A DNA stretch of 37,425 nucleotides from a virus, in IMG/VR virus record IMGVR_UViG_3300031951_000536, positions 1 to 37,425 of that record; one strand, written 5' to 3'. The position numbers were made by a program, and so were the translations under genes. Positions 1 through 26,091 of the stretch are shown here, one piece after another. Under the pieces are notes generated by a model. The model did no database searches. It worked only from the letters and a program-made list of their open reading frames with translations, and had not been told where the DNA came from. How positions within the stretch are numbered: position 1 is the stretch's first letter; every line of letters starts with the position of its first letter.

Positions 1-2269
1 TTCGTATATCTCCAAACTGATCAGAAATATTTCTTGTTTGCATTTGCTGTGGTTTGGTTGCATGTGCAAAAACTGTATCTGGTTTAGTTCTTTTCTTTTT
101 AGTTTTAGGAACAGCCGTTCCATCATTGATCAAAGAAGTAATTACTGGTCTATTTGCTGGATCTTGCGCTGCTTGTGCAGGAATAACTGCTTCGCCAGGA
201 GAAAGTAATGCTGGAACAATGTCGCCTGCTCCCATCGGTCCTGGAACTCTGTCAACACCTGTTGAATATCTTCTGCTTTGCGGAATACCACCGCCTTTTC
301 CACCTCTGCCAACTGGACCAGTGAATCCTAGTTGTGAGGCAATTGCTCTTTGATATGCCGCTGCAAGGGCATTAACTGCTGAAGTCTCAGAAGTAAAAGT
401 TTGTCTAAGTTTTTGATGAACTTGATCTAATGATGCTGCTACTGCAGATGCCTCAAGTTGTTGCTGAGTTAAATAATCTGTTTGATTACCAAGTATTTGC
501 GTTGATGATCCAGCACGATTAAACGAAGTTTTCATTGTTGCAAACAATTTAATTATGTTTGCAAGACCATTAGCAAGCAAGCCGAAGGTCATAAGAGCAA
601 TAGGTCCAACCGCTCCTAGCGCCACAGTGAGAATAGTTAAAAACTTTTTGCTTCCCTCTCCCAAGTTATTAAATTTATCTAAAATTTTAGACGCAAATTC
701 AACAATTGGGGTAAGAGCCTTTAAGAACTGCTCTCCCACTGGAGCAAGAGTTACCTTTAAATCCTCAATTGCTTTTTTAAATTTATATGTTGTGGTATCT
801 TCTATTTTATCTAATTCTCGTTGTGACAATATTGCTAACTCTTCTGTTGTTGCTCTTGTCAAACCAAGGACTCTGGCTGCCTGAGATCCTTGTGCGGTTA
901 CATTTTGAAACAGTGTTGAGAGTCTTGAAAACTGGAATTTTCCAAATAATTGCTCAATTGCACGAGCACGATTAAGTGGATCCAGTGTATCTAATGCTTG
1001 TGCAAATCCTACTACGGTTGCTGCCACATCTCCCTTGTTTGCTTCTACAATACCCTTGATATTTATACCAAGACCACCAAGCATCTTTGATGCTTTTTCA
1101 GATGGGTTAATTAAAGATGCTAAACCAGACTTAAGTGCGTTGGCACCTTCTGATGCATTGATACCGCCTTCTTTCATGGCAGTTAGGAAGAACGCTAAGT
1201 CCTCAACATCTCCGCCAAGTTGCTGAACAACTGGTCCTGCTTTTGGAATTGCAATTGTTAAATCTTCAATAGATACAACAGTTTGGTTTTCAACTGCGTT
1301 AAGGAAGTCAATCTTCTTTGCCAAGTCTTCTGCTGCTACACCAAATGCATTTGTAACAGATATTGTTGTTTCTAATGCTTGCTCTTGTTCAACTCCGCCA
1401 AGTACGGCAAGCCTTGTCGCTTCTGTAACTTGTGCAGTAAGTTCTACGCCCATCTTACCCATTGCTGCAGCGTTAGCAGCCATTTCCATTGTCTTCTCAA
1501 CAGCAACGCCATACTTTGTGTATTCTTTTGCAAGCGTTTGTATCTGTTTGACCATTGCATCTGTTTCTTCTTGAGTGGTAAACATTTCACCATAAACACG
1601 CTTAAATCTAATTGCCTGCTCTTCAAGTTTCATGAAGGTTTTTGCAGCGGTAGACCCAAGGAGCATGAGTGGAACCGTAAAACCAACCATTAACTGGCGG
1701 CCAGCCCATTGAGTATTCTTACCAAAGTTTAGAAGGTTAGTTGAACCTTGCTTAAGTAGTTGATTTAAAAGTTGTTGACGCTGTGCTGCTATTTGTGTTT
1801 GTGTTGCTAGATTCTTCATATCTAGCGTTAGAGGTCTTACAGCAATTGCCTGAAGTGCTCCATTGGCACCACGACCCATCTTGATATACTGGGTCTGTAT
1901 ATCTTTTACACGCTCTCGTGCAACCTTATTTATTGTTTCAAATTCAGACTTAAAAAGTCTTCCGAATGTTTTGGTTGCTGCTCCAGTATACCTAAAGTAT
2001 TCTCTGGATGTTAGTTTATTTTTCTCTAGCGCATTAGTAAAGTACTCTGTACTTGTTGCAACCGTTCTCATGGTTGCTTGGAACTTGCCAGTAGCATTTA
2101 TGCTGTTCATCAAGTTCTGTGCTTGATTTGCTGCTACCGCTGACGCTGCTGCGCCAGACTTTGACATCTGTGTATGGAAGGCTGATATCTGACGCTGCAG
2201 CAGTTTTAAACTTGCTAAAGCATCTGACGTATCAATATTTACATGAATATTGGATTGAACATCAGCCAT
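1..2269 (-). CDS. Phage tail tape measure protein (partial, C-terminus off the window)
   Basis: The reading frame is open from an ATG at 2269 to the window edge, giving 756 visible codons. The N-terminus is MADVQSNIHVNIDTSDALAS, followed by a long Ala/Gln/Lys-rich helical region and a conserved block like the TP901-type tape measure domain (GMFTTQEE-like segment, then AAAMGKMGVELTAQVTEATR and GGINASEGANALKSGLASLI). Near residues 530-580 is a hydrophobic segment (LTILTVALGAVGPIALMTFG), as expected for a protein that enters the host membrane. A Gly/Pro-rich stretch ending in LLSPGEAVIPAAQA resembles the C-terminal region of many tape measures. The protein sets tail length and is packed inside the tube. 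It lies directly after the two chaperone genes, the canonical siphovirus order. An ATG at 2273 hits a stop after three codons and was not used. Confidence 0.9.
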   Translation of the reverse strand, partial: MADVQSNIHVNIDTSDALASLKLLQRQISAFHTQMSKSGAAASAVAANQAQNLMNSINATGKFQATMRTVATSTEYFTNALEKNKLTSREYFRYTGAATKTFGRLFKSEFETINKVARERVKDIQTQYIKMGRGANGALQAIAVRPLTLDMKNLATQTQIAAQRQQLLNQLLKQGSTNLLNFGKNTQWAGRQLMVGFTVPLMLLGSTAAKTFMKLEEQAIRFKRVYGEMFTTQEETDAMVKQIQTLAKEYTKYGVAVEKTMEMAANAAAMGKMGVELTAQVTEATRLAVLGGVEQEQALETTISVTNAFGVAAEDLAKKIDFLNAVENQTVVSIEDLTIAIPKAGPVVQQLGGDVEDLAFFLTAMKEGGINASEGANALKSGLASLINPSEKASKMLGGLGINIKGIVEANKGDVAATVVGFAQALDTLDPLNRARAIEQLFGKFQFSRLSTLFQNVTAQGSQAARVLGLTRATTEELAILSQRELDKIEDTTTYKFKKAIEDLKVTLAPVGEQFLKALTPIVEFASKILDKFNNLGEGSKKFLTILTVALGAVGPIALMTFGLLANGLANIIKLFATMKTSFNRAGSSTQILGNQTDYLTQQQLEASAVAASLDQVHQKLRQTFTSETSAVNALAAAYQRAIASQLGFTGPVGRGGKGGGIPQSRRYSTGVDRVPGPMGAGDIVPALLSPGEAVIPAQAAQDPANRPVITSLINDGTAVPKTKKKRTKPDTVFAHATKPQQMQTRNISDQFGDIR

Positions 2270-2287: not shown

Positions 2288-2611
2288 TTAATTATTTACA
2301 AGATTGCCTAAGAGTGTAGCGTCTGAAAGTCTAATTCCAGATGCCTCTTCAACGATCTTATATACTGTAGGAAGATCTATATTTTCTTCTAGGGCTTCCT
2401 TATCTTCCGCCAATTCTGGCTTGTATTGCTGCATTGCGATTTGTACACACTCCATGAGCAAAGTCATGGATTTTTCATTGTCTTCTGCGACCTTGGCGAT
2501 ATCTTCAAACTTCTTCATAAACGGACGAAGTAGCGAGATCTTTAGTGGTCTTACCTTGATCTTTGTTCCATCGATGAGAGTTACTGTTTTTTCTTCTGTG
2601 GCAGTTGCCAT
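2288..2611 (-). CDS. Tail assembly chaperone, short form (gpG-like)
   Basis: This 107-residue protein starts MATATEEKTVTLIDGTKIKV and contains FMKKFEDIAKV and NIDLPTVYKIVEEASGI. The same framework is found in the first 105 residues of the next gene upstream (IDGT, PLKI, KFE, MQQY/MKQY, NIDLPT/NLDLPT, ASGI/AAGI), so the two are paralogues. Its size and position just before the tape measure gene match the G-type chaperone that coats the tape measure during tail assembly. A strong AGGAGG lies 7 nt before the ATG, and TGGTATAAT lies further upstream. It ends without the T-type extension. Functional assignment is by synteny and paralogy. Confidence 0.75.
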   Translation of the reverse strand: MATATEEKTVTLIDGTKIKVRPLKISLLRPFMKKFEDIAKVAEDNEKSMTLLMECVQIAMQQYKPELAEDKEALEENIDLPTVYKIVEEASGIRLSDATLLGNLVNN

Positions 2612-2638
2612 TTATTCCTCCTTATAAGGTTAAAGTTA

Positions 2639-2647
2639 ATTATACCA
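2639..2647 (-). promoter_or_regulatory. Extended -10 (TGGTATAAT) for the short chaperone
   Basis: TGGTATAAT lies about 28 nt before the ATG at 2611, with AGGAGG in between, so the transcript would have a short leader and separate control from the long chaperone. Confidence 0.55.
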
Positions 2648-2667
2648 TAGCGGAGTGTTATTTTTGA

Positions 2668-3348
2668 CTATTCGTAAACCTCATAATCAAGACCCATGCC
2701 AATACCAAATCCAGCCCGTTCTGCGTTTTTACCCTGCAGGGCAAGAATATCATTTCCATTTTCTGCCTTGCCTTTACTAAACACTCTAGCCTTCATGTCT
2801 TCCCAAGCATTGCTGTTGCCTGAATTTTTATCTAAATCAACACCTTGCATTGCAGCAGCAAACTTTTTATCGCTATAGTCTAAGTCTCTTTTAACTTTAA
2901 TAGTTGCTGTCAATTCTGGCATTGATAAAGATTCTTCAAGTTCTTCATAGTCTTTCCAAATACCGATAAGAAAAGCCTCTGCTTCTAGTTTTGCCAAGTC
3001 TAATGTCTCCCACGAAGACCCACTATCTACTGCTTGAGACTTTACTGGCTCTTCTGATTTTTGATTAATTTTAATACCTGCTGCAATATCTATAACTTGA
3101 TAAATTGTTGGCAAATCTAAATTGTCTTCAAGGTCTTCAATTGTTTTTATATGTGGTGCATATTGTTTCATTGTTATAAGAGCACAAACCACTAGAATAG
3201 ATATTGATTCATCATCTGTTTTGGCAGACTTTATTGTTTCAAATTTTGTTAAAAATTCTCTTAGATATTTTATTTTAAGTGGGGCAGCCTCAATGACTGT
3301 TCCATCTATAAGAGAAAAGTTCTTTTTTTCATATACGCTTGTTGCCAT
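2668..3348 (-). CDS. Tail assembly chaperone, long form (gpGT-like, uninterrupted)
   Basis: The protein has 226 residues. Residues 1-105 are paralogous to the short chaperone downstream. Residues 120-226 form an extension with LEAEAFLIGIWKDYEELEES and LTATIKVKRDLDYSDKKFAA, the kind of second domain normally joined to the G domain by programmed frameshifting. Here both domains are in one continuous frame. The product would act with the short form to load and protect the tape measure before the tube polymerises. The ATG at 3348 has no Shine-Dalgarno sequence; instead TGGTATACT ends 6 nt before it, so the mRNA is probably leaderless. It follows a clear terminator after the tail tube gene. Confidence 0.72.
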   Translation of the reverse strand: MATSVYEKKNFSLIDGTVIEAAPLKIKYLREFLTKFETIKSAKTDDESISILVVCALITMKQYAPHIKTIEDLEDNLDLPTIYQVIDIAAGIKINQKSEEPVKSQAVDSGSSWETLDLAKLEAEAFLIGIWKDYEELEESLSMPELTATIKVKRDLDYSDKKFAAAMQGVDLDKNSGNSNAWEDMKARVFSKGKAENGNDILALQGKNAERAGFGIGMGLDYEVYE

Positions 3349-3354
3349 TATACA

Positions 3355-3363
3355 AGTATACCA
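3355..3363 (-). promoter_or_regulatory. Extended -10 (TGGTATACT), leaderless start of the long chaperone
   Basis: The box ends 6 nt before the ATG at 3348 and there is no Shine-Dalgarno sequence. The promoter lies directly after the terminator that ends the tail tube transcript. Confidence 0.6.
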
Positions 3364-3371
3364 AATGGAAA

Positions 3372-3397
3372 AGCCCAGACTTTCAAGGGTCTGGGCT
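3372..3397 (-). terminator. Intrinsic terminator after the tail tube gene
   Basis: A perfect 9-bp stem (AGCCCAGAC / GTCTGGGCT) with an 8-nt loop is followed on the minus strand by TTTT. It separates the tube gene from the chaperone genes, limiting chaperone expression relative to the tube. Confidence 0.8.
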
Positions 3398-3414: not shown

Positions 3415-4077
3415 TTAATCGAGTGAACGATCTACGATTTTACCGTATGATGCGTTATCGTTTGGAAGAAGACGGAATGATACTTCAAACATTGAAGCCT
3501 CATCACGCTTTGCTGATACTGTAACATTCTCAATTGAGAGTGCACGGTATGCAACATAGATTCTTTCCTTTGGCTCTAGAGAAGAACCAGATCCTGGTCC
3601 TACTGCTACTAGTCCACGCTCTAGTGGAACGTCACCAATATCTCCAGCAGACATCTTGAGTGTTGAAACTCCTGATGCTGTTGTGAGGTCTGTATCATCG
3701 GCTGCAATTGCAACTAGAAGATTTTCTAGTGTTGCTTCTGCGAATGATGTGTTTAGATTAACTGTCATACCTTGCTTGAATAGACGAGCAACGTCGAGAA
3801 GTTGATCTACTGCTACTTCACCGAAATCTGGCTGGAATGCGAGTTCCAGACCGTTCGATGTGTATCCTACGTTTGTGTACCCGTCACCTGTTACGGAATC
3901 TGACAAGGTTTCCTTGTAGGATGTTGAAGATGCGGTCATTGCTGGAAGATCTAGTAACGCTTGTGCGTCAGTAATCTTTCCAGTTGCTGAGTCGTATCCG
4001 ATTGGACCTGCATCATGCGTAAAGAGTGCTGCTGCACCCACGATGATGTTACTACTTGAACCACGGCTGTATGCCAT
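3415..4077 (-). CDS. Major tail (tube) protein
   Basis: This 220-residue protein begins MAYSRGSSSNIIVGAAALFT and later has GLELAFQPDFGEVAVDQLLD and AKRDEASMFEVSFRLLPND, a pattern typical of beta-rich tube proteins of siphophages (an early statement of what the value is, then a domain ending in a short strand motif before the C-terminus). It lies between a tail-terminator-like gene and the chaperones, and is followed by a strong hairpin terminator, as expected for a highly expressed virion protein. The start has a good Shine-Dalgarno sequence (AGAGGTGAG) and its own TATAAT box about 50 nt upstream. No second tube or sheath gene is present. Assignment rests on synteny and composition; I cannot run a profile search. 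Confidence 0.72.
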   Translation of the reverse strand: MAYSRGSSSNIIVGAAALFTHDAGPIGYDSATGKITDAQALLDLPAMTASSTSYKETLSDSVTGDGYTNVGYTSNGLELAFQPDFGEVAVDQLLDVARLFKQGMTVNLNTSFAEATLENLLVAIAADDTDLTTASGVSTLKMSAGDIGDVPLERGLVAVGPGSGSSLEPKERIYVAYRALSIENVTVSAKRDEASMFEVSFRLLPNDNASYGKIVDRSLD

Positions 4078-15573: not shown

Positions 15574-17607
15574 CTACTTGTTTATTTTAATTTCACAGTA
15601 GTCAGTTGTGCAGTATGACTCTCCCTGAGCCTCAAGATTATCTACACCGTCATAAATAGCACTAAAGTCAATATGTTTTAATTTGCCAATATACGACTCA
15701 TACTGCTCTTCAGTAATCTGAGTATATGGCTGCTGTGGATAAACAGTGTTTCCCATTGGAAGGAATGAAACTGCCTTTAATTGTCCCTCGTACATGTGCA
15801 GTGCTGGAACAACATTCTTTGATTCTGTTTCCTTATCAAATGAAAGTGTTACAGAAACACCATTATCAGACCAATACTTTTGAGCAGTTGCAGCAAGAGC
15901 AATCTTCTCAAACAGCGTAACATCCTTTTCAGATCTTGGATGGCCTGACTTGATTGGAAAATATACAACTGATGTATTTGCTGATACTACGTCATCTTCA
16001 ATTGTGTACCCTGCTGCTTTGAACAAGTGCATCATTGGATCTGTGTTTCCAAATCGAACTGCACGAAGAAAGAAGTTTCCTCCAGGACCCCAGTGAACTC
16101 CAGGAGTTGCACCAGAAAGAATTGAAACTGATCCTGATGGCTTAACCGTTGTCACACGAATTGATTCACGAACACATAGCCATTCTGAATAGGAGTGATC
16201 ATATTTACGAATTGTTGTGTATCCTTCATCCATCCAATCACGAACTGTTGGCAGGCCATGCTGGTCTGCAAATGATGCAATGCCAGTGAGTGATGTACCG
16301 ATACGACGATTACGTTGCATGATACCGTTTGTTTGTGGCCAATGAGTTGGAACAAGTGTTACAGTCTTTCCATAAAGATATGCAAACTTAAGGGTACGCA
16401 GGAAGTCCTCCTTGGATTCGTGACGATTCAAGTGCACTTCTACAAGTGTACATAGTTCGTATGACTCCAATGGCTGCTCAGCACATGGATTAAATCCCAT
16501 TACACGATAATCCTTTCCGTCTGGCGCATCCTTTAGCCGTCCATAATTACGAGCAACATCAAGCCAAATAAACCCTGGTTCTCCGTTTTCTGTAATTAAA
16601 TCTACATAGTCTTCGTACTTTGTTCCTACCTCTGCTGAAATAGAATTATTAGACATCCAAGCCCATCCTGGGTTTTCTGGATCAAAAGAGTTTCTTTCTG
16701 GAAATACCTCAGAGTTTTTTAAATTCATAAACGCTTCGTCCCCAGCACTACCTAAAGCAAGTGTTGCAGAGCGTCTTACGTTTCCAGAAACTACACATGT
16801 TCCAATAAGATTTACTAGATCTACAATGGCACGAGAATCTAGGGTTTCTCCAGCCCTGGAGCCTATTACACGGTCAATCTGCTCATGCAGCCTAATAAGA
16901 GGTGCAGGTCCTGATGCAACCCCTCCAAACCCTTTTATAGGGGCTCCTAGAGGCCTAATTAAGTCATAATTAAATTTCTGTATGTTTTGATTAGGTCTGA
17001 GATATGAGTTTATTAAAACTCTCACCGACTCTACCCAACCTTCACGAGTGTCTGGTATTTCATAAACCTGTTCTGGTTCTGTTGGGGAATAAATAATAAA
17101 ATTCTTATCCTGACCAACTGTATCAAATCCAACTCCAATACCAAGCATTAGGGCATCCATTACCCAGGCGAATAAAGCACCTGGATCATTCTTGTCAAGA
17201 TCTTTTGTTGAAACCATAGCGCAGTTTTGTAATGCTGCAGAATTCCTTTTTTCCATTGTCATTGGAGTTCCAAATGCCCACATGCCTCTTCCTGGTGGTG
17301 TCCACTTCAGATTAAACATTCTGTCGAATGCTTCTTGTGCTGACTTCTGAGCCTTATAGTCATTCCATGGAAGACGATTTTCTTTGGCATGATTTTTTTG
17401 AACTGAATACATCCCCTCGATTACACGACGACAAACTTCGTGCCATCTTTCCTTAGTTCCATCTTCCTTCATTCTTGAGTAAGTACGAATAAACGTAATT
17501 TCTCCCAAAGAGTTTTCTGCTGCATCCTTAAACCCGAATGGACTGCTAACACTCTTATACTTTTCTACAAAGTCTTCTGGAAGTCTAAAACTAAAAAAAT
17601 CTGACAT
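15574..17607 (-). CDS. nrdJ: Adenosylcobalamin-dependent ribonucleoside-triphosphate reductase (class II)
   Basis: The 677-residue enzyme reduces ribonucleotides to deoxyribonucleotides for phage DNA synthesis, generating its radical from B12. Visible residues match the monomeric class II type (Lactobacillus leichmannii-like): FNPCAEQPLESYELC at about 372-386 holds the Asn-Cys-Glu active site (N373, C375, E377); C129 in LQNCAMVS and C386 are the reducible pair; the C-terminus has CTTDYC, the thioredoxin-facing pair with the same spacing as in the family. The ATG at 17607 is chosen because AAAGGACG lies about 11 nt upstream; the frame extends to 17628. A TGCTATAAT box and an inverted repeat lie before it. 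It sits among virion genes rather than in a replication module. Confidence 0.93.
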   Translation of the reverse strand: MSDFFSFRLPEDFVEKYKSVSSPFGFKDAAENSLGEITFIRTYSRMKEDGTKERWHEVCRRVIEGMYSVQKNHAKENRLPWNDYKAQKSAQEAFDRMFNLKWTPPGRGMWAFGTPMTMEKRNSAALQNCAMVSTKDLDKNDPGALFAWVMDALMLGIGVGFDTVGQDKNFIIYSPTEPEQVYEIPDTREGWVESVRVLINSYLRPNQNIQKFNYDLIRPLGAPIKGFGGVASGPAPLIRLHEQIDRVIGSRAGETLDSRAIVDLVNLIGTCVVSGNVRRSATLALGSAGDEAFMNLKNSEVFPERNSFDPENPGWAWMSNNSISAEVGTKYEDYVDLITENGEPGFIWLDVARNYGRLKDAPDGKDYRVMGFNPCAEQPLESYELCTLVEVHLNRHESKEDFLRTLKFAYLYGKTVTLVPTHWPQTNGIMQRNRRIGTSLTGIASFADQHGLPTVRDWMDEGYTTIRKYDHSYSEWLCVRESIRVTTVKPSGSVSILSGATPGVHWGPGGNFFLRAVRFGNTDPMMHLFKAAGYTIEDDVVSANTSVVYFPIKSGHPRSEKDVTLFEKIALAATAQKYWSDNGVSVTLSFDKETESKNVVPALHMYEGQLKAVSFLPMGNTVYPQQPYTQITEEQYESYIGKLKHIDFSAIYDGVDNLEAQGESYCTTDYCEIKINK

Positions 17608-17645
17608 AATATTTAATCGTCCTTTCAAAAACGGAATAAGTGTTA

Positions 17646-19317: not shown

Positions 19318-19992
19318 TTATTTTACCTCTTTGTGAGACATGATTGTGAAAAAAAATGGCACAACATATCTAATGCCTTTTGTTATTTCAGTTACTCCAT
19401 GTATATAATTTTTATCTCCTGGGAAAAAATATGCTGCTCCAGCCTTTGGTTTAAATTGTATTTTTTGATTTGGAAAATATAGTTCTCCACCTTCGTAGTC
19501 ATCGTTTAAATAAAATAGCCCAGCAATATCGTACCATGGAAAATCATTAGGTTTCCCAGCATTTTCTCCTTCATGAAGTTCTTTGTCTGCATGTGGCATC
19601 TGCAACTGACCTGGTAACCATCTAACAATTGCAGGTGGTGTTGGATGAGCATCTACATTAAAAAAATTATCTACTTCTATTTTTAATCTTTGTTGCATAT
19701 TTGAAATAATTGGAACAATATCTGAATTATTCTTATTTAAACTTGGTGGAGTTGCAACTCTATTTTCCCAATACTTATGATCATAAATAACAGTACCCTC
19801 TTCATTATAATGAGTTTCTGTTATATCCCAAATTGTTATTTTTTTACCAGCATCTGATAAAAAATTTAACTCTTCGGCTGTCATAAAGTTTTCTCTTGCC
19901 TGAATATTTCCTGCAGATGTGCCAAAAAATCCAGATGGGGTTATAGATTTTGGATTATTTGTACCGCTATTCAGATATTCTACACTATTCAT
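19318..19992 (-). CDS. Prolyl-4-hydroxylase-like 2OG/Fe(II) oxygenase (copy 3)
   Basis: The 224-residue form starts at the ATG at 19992 (MNSVEYLNSGTNNP), because TGGTATAAT ends exactly 6 nt before it, although the frame is open to 20085. The site is complete: H134-x-D136 (QMPHADKELHEG), GLFYLNDDYEGGELYFPNQK, KPKAGAAYFFPGDKNYIHG with H198, and R208 ten residues on. These are the iron and 2-oxoglutarate ligands of P4H-type enzymes. The protein is a compact single-domain oxygenase. It is separately promoted although it lies inside the cluster, and the promoter overlaps the region after the upstream stop. Confidence 0.82.
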   Translation of the reverse strand: MNSVEYLNSGTNNPKSITPSGFFGTSAGNIQARENFMTAEELNFLSDAGKKITIWDITETHYNEEGTVIYDHKYWENRVATPPSLNKNNSDIVPIISNMQQRLKIEVDNFFNVDAHPTPPAIVRWLPGQLQMPHADKELHEGENAGKPNDFPWYDIAGLFYLNDDYEGGELYFPNQKIQFKPKAGAAYFFPGDKNYIHGVTEITKGIRYVVPFFFTIMSHKEVK

Positions 19993-19998
19993 TTTTAT

Positions 19999-20007
19999 AT
20001 TATACCA
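19999..20007 (-). promoter_or_regulatory. Extended -10 (TGGTATAAT), leaderless start of oxygenase copy 3
   Basis: The box ends 6 nt before the ATG at 19992 and fixes the start of that gene. It lies in the 19-base gap after the upstream cupin-like gene. Confidence 0.6.
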
Positions 20008-20011
20008 TTCA

Positions 20012-20746
20012 CTATTCGTATTTTCTTTGTTCCCAAACTTCATTTTTATATATTCCACCGTCTGGTTTGCGGTATTTTGCAGCATTTGCTGCTTTTTGTC
20101 TCATTAGTTCTAAAGCATTTTCTTGTTCAATTATTTCTGAAGTCCAGTTTTCTCTTTTAAATGGTATCACTTGAGAATAAATAGTGCCAGCGGGGATAAC
20201 TCCCTCAAACCCTTCCGAAATAAAAAATGGTAAAGATCCTGGAAGATGAACTTTATCATTATCAATTATTCCACTTGTTACTAAAAATGGAAGTTCAAAT
20301 CTATTAAATGGGTGACAATAAAGTGCGCTATATCCTTCTGGAAGTTTGATTTGCCAATCACAGGTCAATGCAAAATGTTCTTTATAATATCCCCTCGGAT
20401 GCTCAAACTGTGGCATTTCTTGTCTTACTTGAATAAAATCTTTATACTTATCGTCTAAAACTTTGTGCTTAATTCCAGATTCTGTCATATAAAACTCAAT
20501 ATCGCATGGAGTATTTAAAGAATACCCAGTTCCCATAATATCAAAAATTGCTGGACAGGCCTTCCATGTTGGTATTTTTCCATTATCTGGTCCTATTACA
20601 AAAGAATCATCAATAGGAGATTTAAAGAATCTATCTGCTTTTCTAAACCAATCTGGTATTGTTTTAAGTATTGGCTTTGGAGTAGACACACTTTCTTTTG
20701 ATAGCCAAACTCTATTTGCTAAAAATGTTATTTTTTCTGTATTCAT
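20012..20746 (-). CDS. Cupin-like protein of unknown function (possibly DUF6065), downstream paralogue
   Basis: The 244-residue product has WKACPAIFDIMGTGYSLNTP, DIEFYMTESG, LPEGYSALYCHPFNRFELPF and FEGVIPAGTIYSQVIPFKRE. The order (short Cys/Pro strand, DI-F strand, P-x-G-Y loop, then an isolated IPAGT turn) parallels the upstream gene, so the two are distant paralogues. They resemble the cupin-like DUF6065 family found in phages and some bacteria; I cannot confirm this by search. No HxD site is visible, so a catalytic oxygenase role is not supported; a ligand-binding or accessory role is possible. Its ATG overlaps the upstream stop (TAATG). Confidence 0.5.
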   Translation of the reverse strand: MNTEKITFLANRVWLSKESVSTPKPILKTIPDWFRKADRFFKSPIDDSFVIGPDNGKIPTWKACPAIFDIMGTGYSLNTPCDIEFYMTESGIKHKVLDDKYKDFIQVRQEMPQFEHPRGYYKEHFALTCDWQIKLPEGYSALYCHPFNRFELPFLVTSGIIDNDKVHLPGSLPFFISEGFEGVIPAGTIYSQVIPFKRENWTSEIIEQENALELMRQKAANAAKYRKPDGGIYKNEVWEQRKYE

Positions 20747-21486
20747 TATTTATTAAAGTCCATTCCTTTAATTATAGCATTTGGATTTCTATAGTCAGAA
20801 AACTTTAACTTTAAACTTTTAGTCTCATGACTTCCCTGTTTATTTCCTAAATGATCAACAGCATCTCTATAAAAATTGGTCCACTCTCCACCTTTTGTTA
20901 TTTCTCCAGATCGTTTCCCATACTCTGAAATTTTTTGATAATATTCTTGACTAAAGTTTTCATCGTGCAAATTAACTTCTGTATTTTGAATATCTGTTAA
21001 ACTTATTGGAACAATAGAGACAATTGGTGTATTTGCTGGAATTGTTATTACCTCATTTGCCTTTGTTATTTTCCAAGCATATGGTAATGCTGTATCTAAA
21101 ACAGATGTACTAATTATTGTTGTAAAACCTTGTACACCGTCTATAAACTGATTTGGAACTGGCATTAACAAAAGACTAACATTTTCATCAGTTCTAAAAT
21201 TTAAAGTGCTATTAAAACTTATAGTTGCATTTGCTCTATTTGTAAAAACATACTCTTCTCCATTTAAAACCTTTACATGTGAGTCTGATGAATCTGATAT
21301 TCCGTCCCAAATAAAAGAAATATCTTCTGGATAAGAGAATGTCCACCCTAAAGTATTTGCCAATGACACTGGGAAACATCTATATGCATGTTTATCAAAT
21401 GTATTGTCCATCCAATCTCTTTTTATAGGAACTGTAGAAAAATTTACCTTAGAGTTTTTTGGCTGATATACATTAATGCTAGACAC
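20746..21486 (-). CDS. Cupin-like protein of unknown function (possibly DUF6065), upstream paralogue
   Basis: This 246-residue protein starts with GTG, overlapping the upstream stop (TAGTG), and carries YRCFPVSLANTLGWTFSYPE, DISFIWDGISD, FRTDENVSLLLMPVPNQFID, and an ITIPANTPIVSIVPISLTDI turn. The block order matches the next gene downstream, so gene duplication is likely. DUF6065-like is a best guess from overall pattern. No clear metal site is seen. Because it is embedded in a coupled operon of P4H-like oxygenases, a role linked to their substrate or cofactor is plausible but not shown. Confidence 0.5.
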   Translation of the reverse strand: MSSINVYQPKNSKVNFSTVPIKRDWMDNTFDKHAYRCFPVSLANTLGWTFSYPEDISFIWDGISDSSDSHVKVLNGEEYVFTNRANATISFNSTLNFRTDENVSLLLMPVPNQFIDGVQGFTTIISTSVLDTALPYAWKITKANEVITIPANTPIVSIVPISLTDIQNTEVNLHDENFSQEYYQKISEYGKRSGEITKGGEWTNFYRDAVDHLGNKQGSHETKSLKLKFSDYRNPNAIIKGMDFNK

Positions 21487-22187
21487 TAGTCGCCAGTTTC
21501 TCTATAAATTTCTGGAGTGTGAAATTTTGCACTATAGTCTAACATTGTAACTATAGAATATTTAGTTCCAGATTTTACTGGCATTGCTCTGTGGCTATAC
21601 ATATAGTTTGAAGGGAATATGTATAAGTCTCCAGCCTTTGGCTTTACCAAAAGATCTTGTAATTGAAAATGTAATCCGCCCTCTTCGTAGTCATCATTAA
21701 CATATGCTACTAAGGATACTGTACAGTTATACGAAAATCCGTGGTCATGATGATATTGAAAATGTTGTCCTTTATTATATTTAATAAAATTCATTGCTTC
21801 CCAATATCTTAAATCTCCAATATTAAAAAATCTTCTGTAGTGATCAACTGCTGGTTTTTTTCTATCATAACAATCTTGCCATAAAGATTGAAGATTTAAT
21901 GATTCTTGACTTAAATCATCTTGTATGTCTGTTTTTTTAAATTTAAAATCTACACAATCTCTATAGTCTGGCATAGTTTGCATATAACCAACATATGCTG
22001 GTTGCCAAGAATATCTTTCATTTTCTGTTGCAAGATTACTTTCAAGTCTATTAATTATGTCTAAACTTTTTGGAAGAACATCTCTATATACAAAAATTCC
22101 ATTTCCAAGATTTTCAAAAGATGACCAGGTTTGTTCAGGAATTTTGCCTGTAACATTGCTGTTTATGCTAGTGCCTATTTGATCCAT
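21486..22187 (-). CDS. Prolyl-4-hydroxylase-like 2OG/Fe(II) oxygenase (copy 2)
   Basis: The 233-residue protein has H146-x-D148 (FQYHHDHGFSYN), AYVNDDYEEGGLHFQLQDLL, KPKAGDLYIFPSNYMYSH with H199, and K209 ten residues later, the complete Fe/2OG site of P4H-type enzymes. It is closely similar to the next upstream gene (both have HHDHG/HGDHG, KPKAGD, FPSN-x-x-Y, GTKYS), so these two form a recent-looking pair. A TGATATAAT box and GAAGGG precede the ATG. It begins a coupled operon with the two cupin-like genes. Confidence 0.83.
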   Translation of the reverse strand: MDQIGTSINSNVTGKIPEQTWSSFENLGNGIFVYRDVLPKSLDIINRLESNLATENERYSWQPAYVGYMQTMPDYRDCVDFKFKKTDIQDDLSQESLNLQSLWQDCYDRKKPAVDHYRRFFNIGDLRYWEAMNFIKYNKGQHFQYHHDHGFSYNCTVSLVAYVNDDYEEGGLHFQLQDLLVKPKAGDLYIFPSNYMYSHRAMPVKSGTKYSIVTMLDYSAKFHTPEIYRETGD

Positions 22188-22211
22188 TTTATTACCCTTC
22201 TATATGTATAA

Positions 22212-22220
22212 ATTATATCA
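22212..22220 (-). promoter_or_regulatory. Extended -10 (TGATATAAT) for oxygenase copy 2
   Basis: Its first three bases are the TGA stop codon of oxygenase copy 1. A leader of about 18 nt with GAAGGG precedes the ATG at 22187. Confidence 0.6.
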
Positions 22221-22922
22221 TAACTGCGACTTATGATGTAAATCGTTATAATCTGTCATTATTACTACTGAATACTTTGTACCGTCAAAAATTTCATGAG
22301 ATGAGTGCTCATAAACAAAGTTTGATGGAAAAATAATAATGTCGCCAGCCTTTGGTTTTATTTTTAATAACTGTCTAGGAAATTCTATTTCTCCACCTGT
22401 ATAATTATCATTTAAATAAACTACAGCAGATATTGTGCATGAATAGTATGGTCCGTGATCACCGTGAAGTTTAAAATATTTGCCTGGTAAATATTTTACA
22501 AAATTAAATGCTTCTTTATAAAACATCTGTAAATGCCATAAAGACTGATAATCTTCTAGGCATTTATCTAGTGCATCCTCTACCTCTTTATGAATATCAA
22601 ACATATCTTGATCAAATTTTAATATAGTTCCCAAATGTTCTCTTTTATATTTTATATCTACACAATTTCTTACATGATATGTATCCTCTTTATCATTTAC
22701 TTGTGCTCCATTCCAAGACATTTCAAAAGATTCACTCATTGCTCCACGTTCAAGTCTATCGATTATGCTTAGACATTGGTCTTTTGGTATAGCATTTCTA
22801 TAAAGGTTAATTCCATACTCTAAGTTAATAACTTCAATATTATTTTTAATTAAACGATTTGACAATCTGTTTTTTGTATTTTCTAATCTTGGAATATCAT
22901 ACCATTCTATTTTTTTTTCCAT
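22218..22922 (-). CDS. Prolyl-4-hydroxylase-like 2OG/Fe(II) oxygenase (copy 1 of the left cluster)
   Basis: This 234-residue enzyme opens the left oxygenase cluster. It has H153-x-D155 (FKLHGDHGPYYS), VVYLNDNYTGGEIEFPRQLL, KIKPKAGDIIIFPSNFVYEH with H206, and K216 ten residues on. Active-site positions are intact. TGGTATAAT ends 7 nt before the ATG and is one arm of a perfect inverted repeat, suggesting controlled leaderless expression. It is the nearest oxygenase to the Phe/Pro/Cys-rich fibre encoded immediately upstream. Substrate is not known from sequence. Confidence 0.83.
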   Translation of the reverse strand: MEKKIEWYDIPRLENTKNRLSNRLIKNNIEVINLEYGINLYRNAIPKDQCLSIIDRLERGAMSESFEMSWNGAQVNDKEDTYHVRNCVDIKYKREHLGTILKFDQDMFDIHKEVEDALDKCLEDYQSLWHLQMFYKEAFNFVKYLPGKYFKLHGDHGPYYSCTISAVVYLNDNYTGGEIEFPRQLLKIKPKAGDIIIFPSNFVYEHSSHEIFDGTKYSVVIMTDYNDLHHKSQL

Positions 22923-23925: not shown

Positions 23926-26091
23926 TTATGCTGTTAAGTCTCCTACGACTACCCATGAGTCTGTTGCTCTCTTCATTAGAGTTGCAGATGACCATTGAGT
24001 ACGTAGTTTAAGTCCTGGTGTAGCATTAACTGTAACTCCGCCTGCGCCAGCAATTGTAACTTGTCCTGCTCCAGTTTGAAGGATATCAATTGATGTTCCT
24101 ACTGGCCATGCGACTGTTGCATTTGTTGGAATTGTAAGAGTTAATGCTGAACCGCTACCCATTTCTATTAAACAGTCTCTTTCTCCAAGTGATGATAGTG
24201 TGTAAGATGCTGTTTTTGGAATAATTGTTGTTCTTGAAGGAACGCCTTCTTTTGTCTGAGTTCCATCTGTAAATGCAACTCCAGAAGCAGATACTGTTAC
24301 AGTACCTGTAAATGTTGGAGAAGCAAGTGGAGCCTTGAGATCAAGTGCTGTTTGTGCAGCAGTTGAAACTGGCTTATTAGCATCGGAAGTATTATCAACA
24401 TTTCCAAGTCCAACCATTGATTTTGTGATACCTGAAACGGTACCTGTAAATGTTGGAGATGCAAGGTTTGCTTTGAGATCTAATGCTGTCTGTGTGGCAG
24501 TTGATACTGGCTTATCAGCATCTGATGTATTATCTACGTTGCCTAGACCAACCATTGATTTTGTAATACCTGAAACGGTACCAGTAAATGTTGGGCTTGC
24601 TAATCTTGCAATTGAGTTATTAACACTAAAAGATGTTCCTGTTAGTGTTAAACCATCTCCTGCTGTAAATGTACCAGTACCAGAAAATTGTGTAAATACA
24701 ATTGCATCTGTATCTAGTGTCGTAATAGTATTAGTCTGTACCCATCCCGTTTTACCATTTGAGGTTCCAGCCTCTACGAATATAAAGTCACCAGCATCCA
24801 CTTCTGGAATTGAGTTATAGTCTGTCGCTCTTGTCCATGAACCAGATGCAACTACATAAATACCATTTTCTGAATCTGTTGCTTGATTCTTAACTAGCAC
24901 TCTGTTTCCTGCAACAACTGAAATTCCATCAATTGTCTGAGTTCCGCTTAATGTTATGTTTGCTGTTGTGGCTGCTTGAACTGATGCATGAACATTTAAT
25001 CCTGCTGTTGCAGCATCAACATATGCCTTTGTAGCAGCATGAAGATCTGATGAAGGTGCACCTGAAAGTGTAAGTGCTCCTGTCATTGTGCCTCCAGCAA
25101 GCGATAATTTAAGACCTAATGCTGCATCTGTTGCCATGGAAACTGGCTTGTCGGAATCAGAAGTATTGTCTGCATTTGCAAGGCCAATCATTGCTTTTGT
25201 GATTCCTCCCACAGTTCCAGTAAATGTTGGGGATTCTAAGTTAGCCTTAAGATCTAGTGCTGCTTGTTGAGCAGTTGAAACTGGCTTATCATTATCGCTA
25301 GAATTATCTACGTCACCGAGGCCAACCATTGTTTTGGTAATACCAACAACGTTACCAGTAAATACTGGGGAATTCTTTGGAGCCTTGAGATCAAGTTCAG
25401 TTTGTACTGCTGTTGATACTGGCTTATCAGCATCTGCTGTATTATCTACGTTACCAAGTCCAACATCACCTTTAGCAATTCCAGTTGGACTATTGATTAC
25501 TGGAGACTGTAATGTTTTATTTGTTAAAGACTGAGATCCTGCTAGTGTTACTAGATTTGCTGTATCTTCAATACCATGTACACCAGTAGTATCTTGTGAG
25601 TGTACAGTTACTGAGTTATCTGCATAAGTTTTTGTTGCAACTGTAGAATCAATATCAAATCTTTCATCTATAGCATTCCAATCAAGGCCAGTTCCAGCAA
25701 GTGCTGCTTGATCTACTGTTGCATTTGCGATTGCATCCGTAAGGTTTGTTTGTGTTACAAGAACTGTTGTATCTGCAATACCGTGAACACTGCTTGTATC
25801 AGATGCATGTGTAGAAAGGTTTGTTGCTACTGTTGTTAAAAATGAAGGATCATCTCCGATAGCCGCTGCTAGTTCATTGAGAGTGTTAAGAAGGTCTGGA
25901 GCGCCGTCAATTATTGCTGCTAGTTCTGCTGCATTAGCAAAGTATTGTAATGCGGACCATGCTGATGATCCATTACCCATTTTAAATTTATTTGTGTCAG
26001 TTTCAAAACCGATTTCACCTGCTGCGAGAACTGGGTTAGCAGCCGTCCATTGTGCTGCAGTTCCTCTGCGCTGTTGCATTCTTGTTGCCAT
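23926..26091 (-). CDS. Tail fibre with repeated GLGNVDN modules
   Basis: The 721-residue protein begins MATRMQQRRGTAAQWTAANP followed by LAAGEIGFETDTNKFKMGNG, the typical N-terminal attachment domain of many tail fibres and of Mtd-type tropism determinants. Five repeats of a module with GLGNVDN, SDADKPVSTA and ALDLKA follow, two of them nearly identical and consecutive. A central domain has ATKAYVDAATAGLNVHASVQ and NRVLVKNQATDSENGIYVVA. The last about 95 residues (KTASYTLSSLGERD ... SWVVVGDLTA) are paralogous to a domain in the VTP-rich fibre further upstream. It probably forms a trimeric receptor-binding fibre. AAGGAG sits before the ATG; a hairpin and TGTTATAAT lie upstream. Confidence 0.82.
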   Translation of the reverse strand: MATRMQQRRGTAAQWTAANPVLAAGEIGFETDTNKFKMGNGSSAWSALQYFANAAELAAIIDGAPDLLNTLNELAAAIGDDPSFLTTVATNLSTHASDTSSVHGIADTTVLVTQTNLTDAIANATVDQAALAGTGLDWNAIDERFDIDSTVATKTYADNSVTVHSQDTTGVHGIEDTANLVTLAGSQSLTNKTLQSPVINSPTGIAKGDVGLGNVDNTADADKPVSTAVQTELDLKAPKNSPVFTGNVVGITKTMVGLGDVDNSSDNDKPVSTAQQAALDLKANLESPTFTGTVGGITKAMIGLANADNTSDSDKPVSMATDAALGLKLSLAGGTMTGALTLSGAPSSDLHAATKAYVDAATAGLNVHASVQAATTANITLSGTQTIDGISVVAGNRVLVKNQATDSENGIYVVASGSWTRATDYNSIPEVDAGDFIFVEAGTSNGKTGWVQTNTITTLDTDAIVFTQFSGTGTFTAGDGLTLTGTSFSVNNSIARLASPTFTGTVSGITKSMVGLGNVDNTSDADKPVSTATQTALDLKANLASPTFTGTVSGITKSMVGLGNVDNTSDANKPVSTAAQTALDLKAPLASPTFTGTVTVSASGVAFTDGTQTKEGVPSRTTIIPKTASYTLSSLGERDCLIEMGSGSALTLTIPTNATVAWPVGTSIDILQTGAGQVTIAGAGGVTVNATPGLKLRTQWSSATLMKRATDSWVVVGDLTA
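24320..25480 (-). repeat. Degenerate fibre repeats encoding GLGNVDN modules
   Basis: Five related units of about 120-140 bp encode the GLGNVDN/KPVSTA/ALDLKA modules of the 721-residue fibre; the two near 24340-24600 are the most alike. Confidence 0.75.

Follow-up and report, generated by a model that had tools for sequence, protein, structure and literature searches.

Tandem duplication as a probable replacement for the tail assembly chaperone frameshift in a large, uncultivated group of aquatic phages

The window analyzed here is the whole 37,425-nucleotide stretch of the IMG/VR virus record IMGVR_UViG_3300031951_000536 (positions 1 to 37,425), and all coordinates below are window positions on its minus strand, where the genes run in the order portal, protease, capsid, connectors, major tail protein, GT-type chaperone (GT), standalone G-type chaperone (G) and tape-measure protein. 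The 220-residue major tail protein gene (3415..4077) matches PHROG 2175 (E 1e-30) and, weakly, a Pfam tail tube family, and its counterpart in Stanwilliamsviridae records is annotated as “major tail protein”. The gap between this gene and GT contains a predicted intrinsic terminator hairpin (3372..3397; 9-bp stem, T-rich tail, fold z -4.35) and an extended -10 element, TGGTATACT (3355..3363), which was recognized by motif count and conservation and lies 6 nt 5′ of the GT ATG in a leaderless-like arrangement. GT itself (2668..3348) is an in-frame fusion of 226 amino acids consisting of a G domain (residues 1-95, 3064..3348), a linker without a slippery heptamer at the place where relatives shift frame (3013..3063), and a T domain (residues 113-226, 2671..3012) that aligns with the T encoded in the -1 frame of Stanwilliamsviridae. 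Downstream lie a second, likewise conserved extended -10 element found by motif count, TGGTATAAT (2639..2647), a Shine-Dalgarno sequence, AAGGAGG (2617..2623), and the standalone G gene of 107 amino acids (2288..2611), whose C-terminal tail GIRLSDATLLGNLVNN (2291..2338) corresponds to the zero-frame end of the ancestral gene, LNDPNLLGAALVGTN. The tape-measure protein gene (2..2269) is incomplete in the window and was assigned by its position and length, and its equivalent in relatives is annotated as tape measure. Elsewhere, the window encodes a B12-dependent ribonucleotide reductase (15574-17628), two 2OG-Fe(II) oxygenase-like genes (19318-22922), and a protein with an Mtd N-terminal domain that is a possible receptor-binding protein (23926-26091).

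The original prediction held that a G-type domain is present twice in this region, first fused in frame to a T-like domain and then alone, and both the gene order (GT at 3348-2668, then G at 2611-2288) and the homology agree with it. The GT N-terminal domain and standalone G align over 97 columns with 45% identity (E 4e-26), both match PHROG 10504 (E 2.5e-20 and 5e-20), and the remainder of the fusion matches PHROG 10474 (E 1.8e-17). The same prediction asked for similarity between modeled structures, and in the medium-confidence models (pLDDT 78 for G and 69 for GT) the predicted secondary structure of the shared domain agrees between the two proteins, in line with their sequences.

Whether these proteins are tail assembly chaperones (TACs) at all had to be considered, as both PHROGs carry the label “unknown function” and the top-ranked PDB match to the G model, the HK97 chaperone 2ob9, is not significant (E 0.5). 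One or both could on these grounds be other small morphogenesis proteins, a reading that we regard as highly improbable. A sequence search of solved structures yielded no relative. Against it, the two genes lie between the major tail protein and tape-measure genes, as expected of lambda-type chaperones, relatives in which the same parts are joined by a -1 shift are annotated as tail assembly chaperones, and several family members weakly match five different TAC PHROGs. In addition, the G model matches a TAC among viral folds (E 6.5e-6), and the named viral fold matches for G and GT are mostly chaperones. The two products also have a common N-terminal domain, with a C-terminal T domain on the long one, as in lambda. 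From this homology and position, we infer that G and GT are the short and long tail assembly chaperones, and the roles assigned to them by analogy with lambda would be binding of the tape measure by G and recruitment of tail subunits by GT.

In order to place the locus among its relatives, three IMG/VR scans and one scan of GTDB genomes were conducted with G and T profiles and redundancy was removed, yielding at least 166 non-redundant loci. As the scans were query-biased, these counts describe the matches listed, and mixed forms may have escaped. The loci comprise 115 in which G follows a fused GT, 4 in which GT reaches the contig end, and 47 in which a single G is followed by T in the -1 frame. 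A standalone G was present in all 115 of the listed fusion loci with sufficient downstream DNA, no mixed locus was found among the 166 listed, and none of the 47 frameshift loci had a second G. Both genes of the pair are under purifying selection, with median dN/dS of 0.05-0.13 (G 0.053, GT N-terminal domain 0.127, linker plus T 0.051), and G is thus the better conserved copy of the shared domain. The arrangement is kept in 115 loci with both genes under purifying selection, neither gene is a chance open reading frame, and the 115 non-redundant loci also rule out an assembly or sequencing artefact. The GT-G arrangement is therefore not specific to this window and belongs to a large group of aquatic, uncultivated phages. 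In the 50,697 phage records searched, protein matches came only from Streptomyces phages (Stanwilliamsviridae) and Rhodococcus phages, and the host of the window phage is likely actinobacterial, judging from these relatives. The scan of GTDB genomes found a single relative, of the frameshift form, and neither a prophage nor a host with the GT-G pair. This relative (L172; CAINGU010000031.1, 110 kb) is binned as “uncultured cyanobacterium” and has an actinophage-like tail module; it is probably a misbinned phage contig.

The 47 frameshift loci come from Stanwilliamsviridae, Rhodococcus phage Dorin and other viral contigs, and the proposed check for a slippery site in relatives found CCCAAA[C/T] at the equivalent site in 42 of them. 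The shift region corresponds to KLNDPN/E codons, with C_CCA_AAT, C_CCG_GAA or, in Dorin, G_GGA_AAA, and the further viral contigs and L172 share this form, their heptamer being C_CCA_AAC or C_CCA_AAT. In total, there are 31 CCCAAAC, 11 CCCAAAT, 4 CCCGGAA-type and 1 GGGAAAA sites. Boydwoodruffvirinae (L083, L085, L088 and L090) have C_CCG_GAA, which does not fit the canonical X_XXY_YYZ heptamer, where Loccivirinae have CCCAAAT. A joined chaperone was annotated by the depositors in TunaTartare, Sham, Francob and Dorin, which are annotations and not experiments. On frameshift contigs, LNDPNLLGAALVGTN closes the zero frame, and the -1 frame leads through a short linker and W(D/E)ELDLA into T.

The prediction that two genes replace the frameshift here implies that neither of them retains a functional one, and this is what the GT-G loci look like. 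The -1 frame past the G stop is open for a median of 8 codons, compared to at least 91 codons in the frameshift set, and the window G has CGCTACA in place of CCCAAAY. Neither a T frame nor a slippery site was found behind standalone G. Of the 115 loci, 9 have a canonical heptamer in the GT linker and 11 have one close to the end of G, with mixed sequences, and synonymous conservation shows no rise at the GT linker, where its values (0.53-0.55) are among the lowest of the gene. These counts and conservation values rule out a hidden frameshift at the GT linker or the G end for the group, and the long form is encoded by in-frame fusion rather than by a programmed shift near the end of the short reading frame. 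Heptamers at other places, such as A_AAA_AAG at codons 7-9 of the window GT, were rejected as candidates, as they are not conserved and a stop follows within about a dozen codons. Relics of LNDPN are visible in some GT linkers (NPN in L103, DPN in L098, DDPD in L127). At GT codon 95, L103 and L104 retain the ancestral C_CCA_AAT with a -1 stop directly after it; this is most likely a relic, although a residual frameshift yielding extra G may persist in these two loci.

That last observation bears on a different account of the locus, in which standalone G is a paralogue with a new role and GT still supplies both chaperone forms, perhaps through proteolytic cleavage or through slippage at A/T runs within the linker. 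The linkers do contain homopolymers (6-base runs in eighteen and 7-base runs in three), and together with the L103/L104 sites and the separate long branch of standalone G described below, these are the points in its favor. However, 106 of 115 loci have no canonical heptamer in the linker, synonymous conservation shows no rise there, and it is G that is more conserved and that has the ancestral tail, promoter and Shine-Dalgarno sequence. Among the listed loci, G is always there when GT is fused and enough downstream DNA is available. We consider this account unlikely, and a division of the two chaperone forms between two genes is the preferred reading.

How the two genes arose was addressed with a tree of 104 G domains, which is displayed with the frameshift genes as outgroup and without root inference. 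The standalone Gs are recovered as a single clade (support 100/100) with a long branch of its own (1.09). The frameshift Gs are set apart by a branch (100/100), and relative to all of them G and GT belong together (100/100). In this drawing, GT is paraphyletic relative to G. No G pairs with the GT of its own phage, which rules out recent gene conversion between the copies, and because standalone G is one clade with full support, the duplication appears to be old and single. As an independent marker, the major tail protein tree separates GT-G phages from frameshift phages by one change (support 99-100), and the T tree separates the two kinds likewise with weaker support (90-93). The simplest reading of these trees is one old switch with no conversion since. 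Apart from these groupings, one very divergent GT-G pair (L209) has a short linker and end branches of 1.23 and 0.85, and it may represent an early branch of the GT-G lineage.

The separate clade and long branch of standalone G, and a codon usage that differs between G and GT, could also be explained if G had been acquired horizontally from another phage and placed beside a GT whose frame was repaired by an indel. Yet G and GT group together to the exclusion of every frameshift gene and are adjacent in every locus, and we judge such an acquisition to be quite unlikely; the outcome would in any case be identical, with two genes in place of a frameshift. Tandem duplication is further reflected in how the ancestral parts are distributed between the copies. 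G keeps the zero-frame tail, the promoter and the Shine-Dalgarno sequence, and the fusion reads straight into T. The region 5′ of G, TGGTATAATTAACTAA...AAGGAGG, resembles the TTGGTATAATTTAACTAA...AAAGGAG that precedes the single G of frameshift contigs, and the extended -10 element of G also precedes the single G gene in many frameshift relatives.

Each gene had also been predicted to have its own promoter-like element, and this proved correct in the form of an extended -10 motif without a -35. In the window, TGGTATAMT occurs 8 times against 0.82 expected, always on the coding strand, with one copy before GT and one before G, and a scan for two-hexamer sigma-70 promoters in the same window showed no excess (19 observed against 22.6 expected). 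The wider motif TGnTATAMT occurs on the minus strand at 2639, 3355, 7220, 11821, 17646, 19999, 20771, 22212, 22930, 26131, 29324, 29898, 35495 and 36581. All 14 of these coding-strand sites have a possible gene start at most 45 nt away, and 7 of them sit 6-7 nt 5′ of an ATG, which suggests a phage-wide extended -10 promoter motif and many leaderless phage genes. In actinobacteria, leaderless genes can be well translated. In M. tuberculosis, the center of TANNNT -10 elements lies 7-12 bp upstream of starts, leaderless genes make up 26% of those with a primary start, and genes led by a Shine-Dalgarno sequence show higher RNA levels during growth (PMC3898074).

Across the listed loci, the GT extended -10 lies 5-9 nt from the start in 109 of 115 (exactly 6 nt in 85), and a Shine-Dalgarno sequence precedes GT in none of the 115. 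For G, an extended -10 is present in 114 of the 115 and a Shine-Dalgarno-like site in 110 of 111 scorable loci, with the G start placed downstream of a TTG inside the promoter (TATAATTG; 30 loci have that TTG). A terminator-like hairpin lies 5′ of GT in 117 of 119 loci, compared to 8 of 595 mononucleotide shuffles, and none was found between GT and G; such a hairpin is also present in 39 of the 47 frameshift loci. GT thus appears to be leaderless-like, with a predicted promoter behind a terminator. In 108 of 113 loci, the codon usage of G is closer than that of GT to the major tail protein on the same contig. As GT is leaderless-like without a Shine-Dalgarno sequence, and G has a promoter, a strong Shine-Dalgarno sequence and this codon usage, initiation probably determines the G:GT ratio, with Shine-Dalgarno strength, promoter and codon usage serving only as proxies for the relative abundance of the two proteins.

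Taken as a whole, the evidence strongly favors tandem duplication of an ancestral frameshift gene, with each copy specialized on one frame. The ancestor would have produced both forms from one gene by -1 programmed frameshifting at C_CCA_AAY within LNDPN codons, and this gene would have been duplicated once, in tandem, in the lineage of this phage. One copy would then have become the in-frame G-T fusion, and the other would have been reduced to G alone by loss of T and of the slippery site. GT would be expressed from a leaderless-type promoter just behind the terminator, and G both by read-through from GT and from a separate promoter followed by a strong Shine-Dalgarno sequence. G, presumed to be in excess, would coat the tape-measure protein, and the scarcer GT would recruit the major tail protein. 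We hold it to be somewhat more probable than otherwise that the lineage exchanged a near-universal frameshift for a duplication once and for good, with stoichiometry moved to a pair of promoters, one leaderless and one led by a Shine-Dalgarno sequence.

It is often stated that the G/GT frameshift is conserved owing to the critical ratio of its two products. As relatives lie on both sides of a single switch, loss of the frameshift becomes testable here, and with it the purpose of the frameshift, whether control of the ratio can move to initiation, and the way in which one gene with overlapping frames splits in two. For annotators, an in-frame fusion with a small paralogue can be a full chaperone set and not an annotation or assembly error. 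The PRFect study counted 342 SEA-PHAGES genomes in which two chaperone genes are annotated and presumed these to be unannotated frameshifts (PMC10885494).

Finally, these loci can be compared with known systems. Most tailed phages make both chaperone forms from one gene by ribosome slippage. In lambda, gpG outnumbers gpGT by about 30:1; the former attaches to the tape measure and the latter brings in tail subunits (PMC5009743). The -1 frameshift is conserved among phages with long tails (Xu 2004, according to the review PMC5009743). The lambda pair resembles the one described here in having a short and a long chaperone with a common N-terminal domain, but it comes from one frameshifting gene, whereas GT-G phages have two genes and no frameshift signal. 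Chaperones made without frameshifting have already been reported in T4-like phages (Vladimirov, Gautam, Davidson 2022, according to its title and its citations in PMC10885494 and PMC12846349). At the level of that title and those citations, the likeness is a non-frameshift mechanism; T4-like phages are, unlike these, myophages, and no T4-like record was among the tblastn matches. For a duplication that splits the two chaperone frames, which is what these sequences point to, no earlier report was found in the open-access literature searched. The closest comparison is with the Stanwilliamsviridae chaperones (TunaTartare, Sham, Francob, Coruscant and EGole), which have homologous G and T (37-40% identity, alignment A1) over nearly the whole length and occupy the same slot between major tail protein and tape measure, but which, unlike the GT-G phages, have a single G gene, with C_CCA_AAT or C_CCG_GAA preceding a T that lies in the -1 frame.
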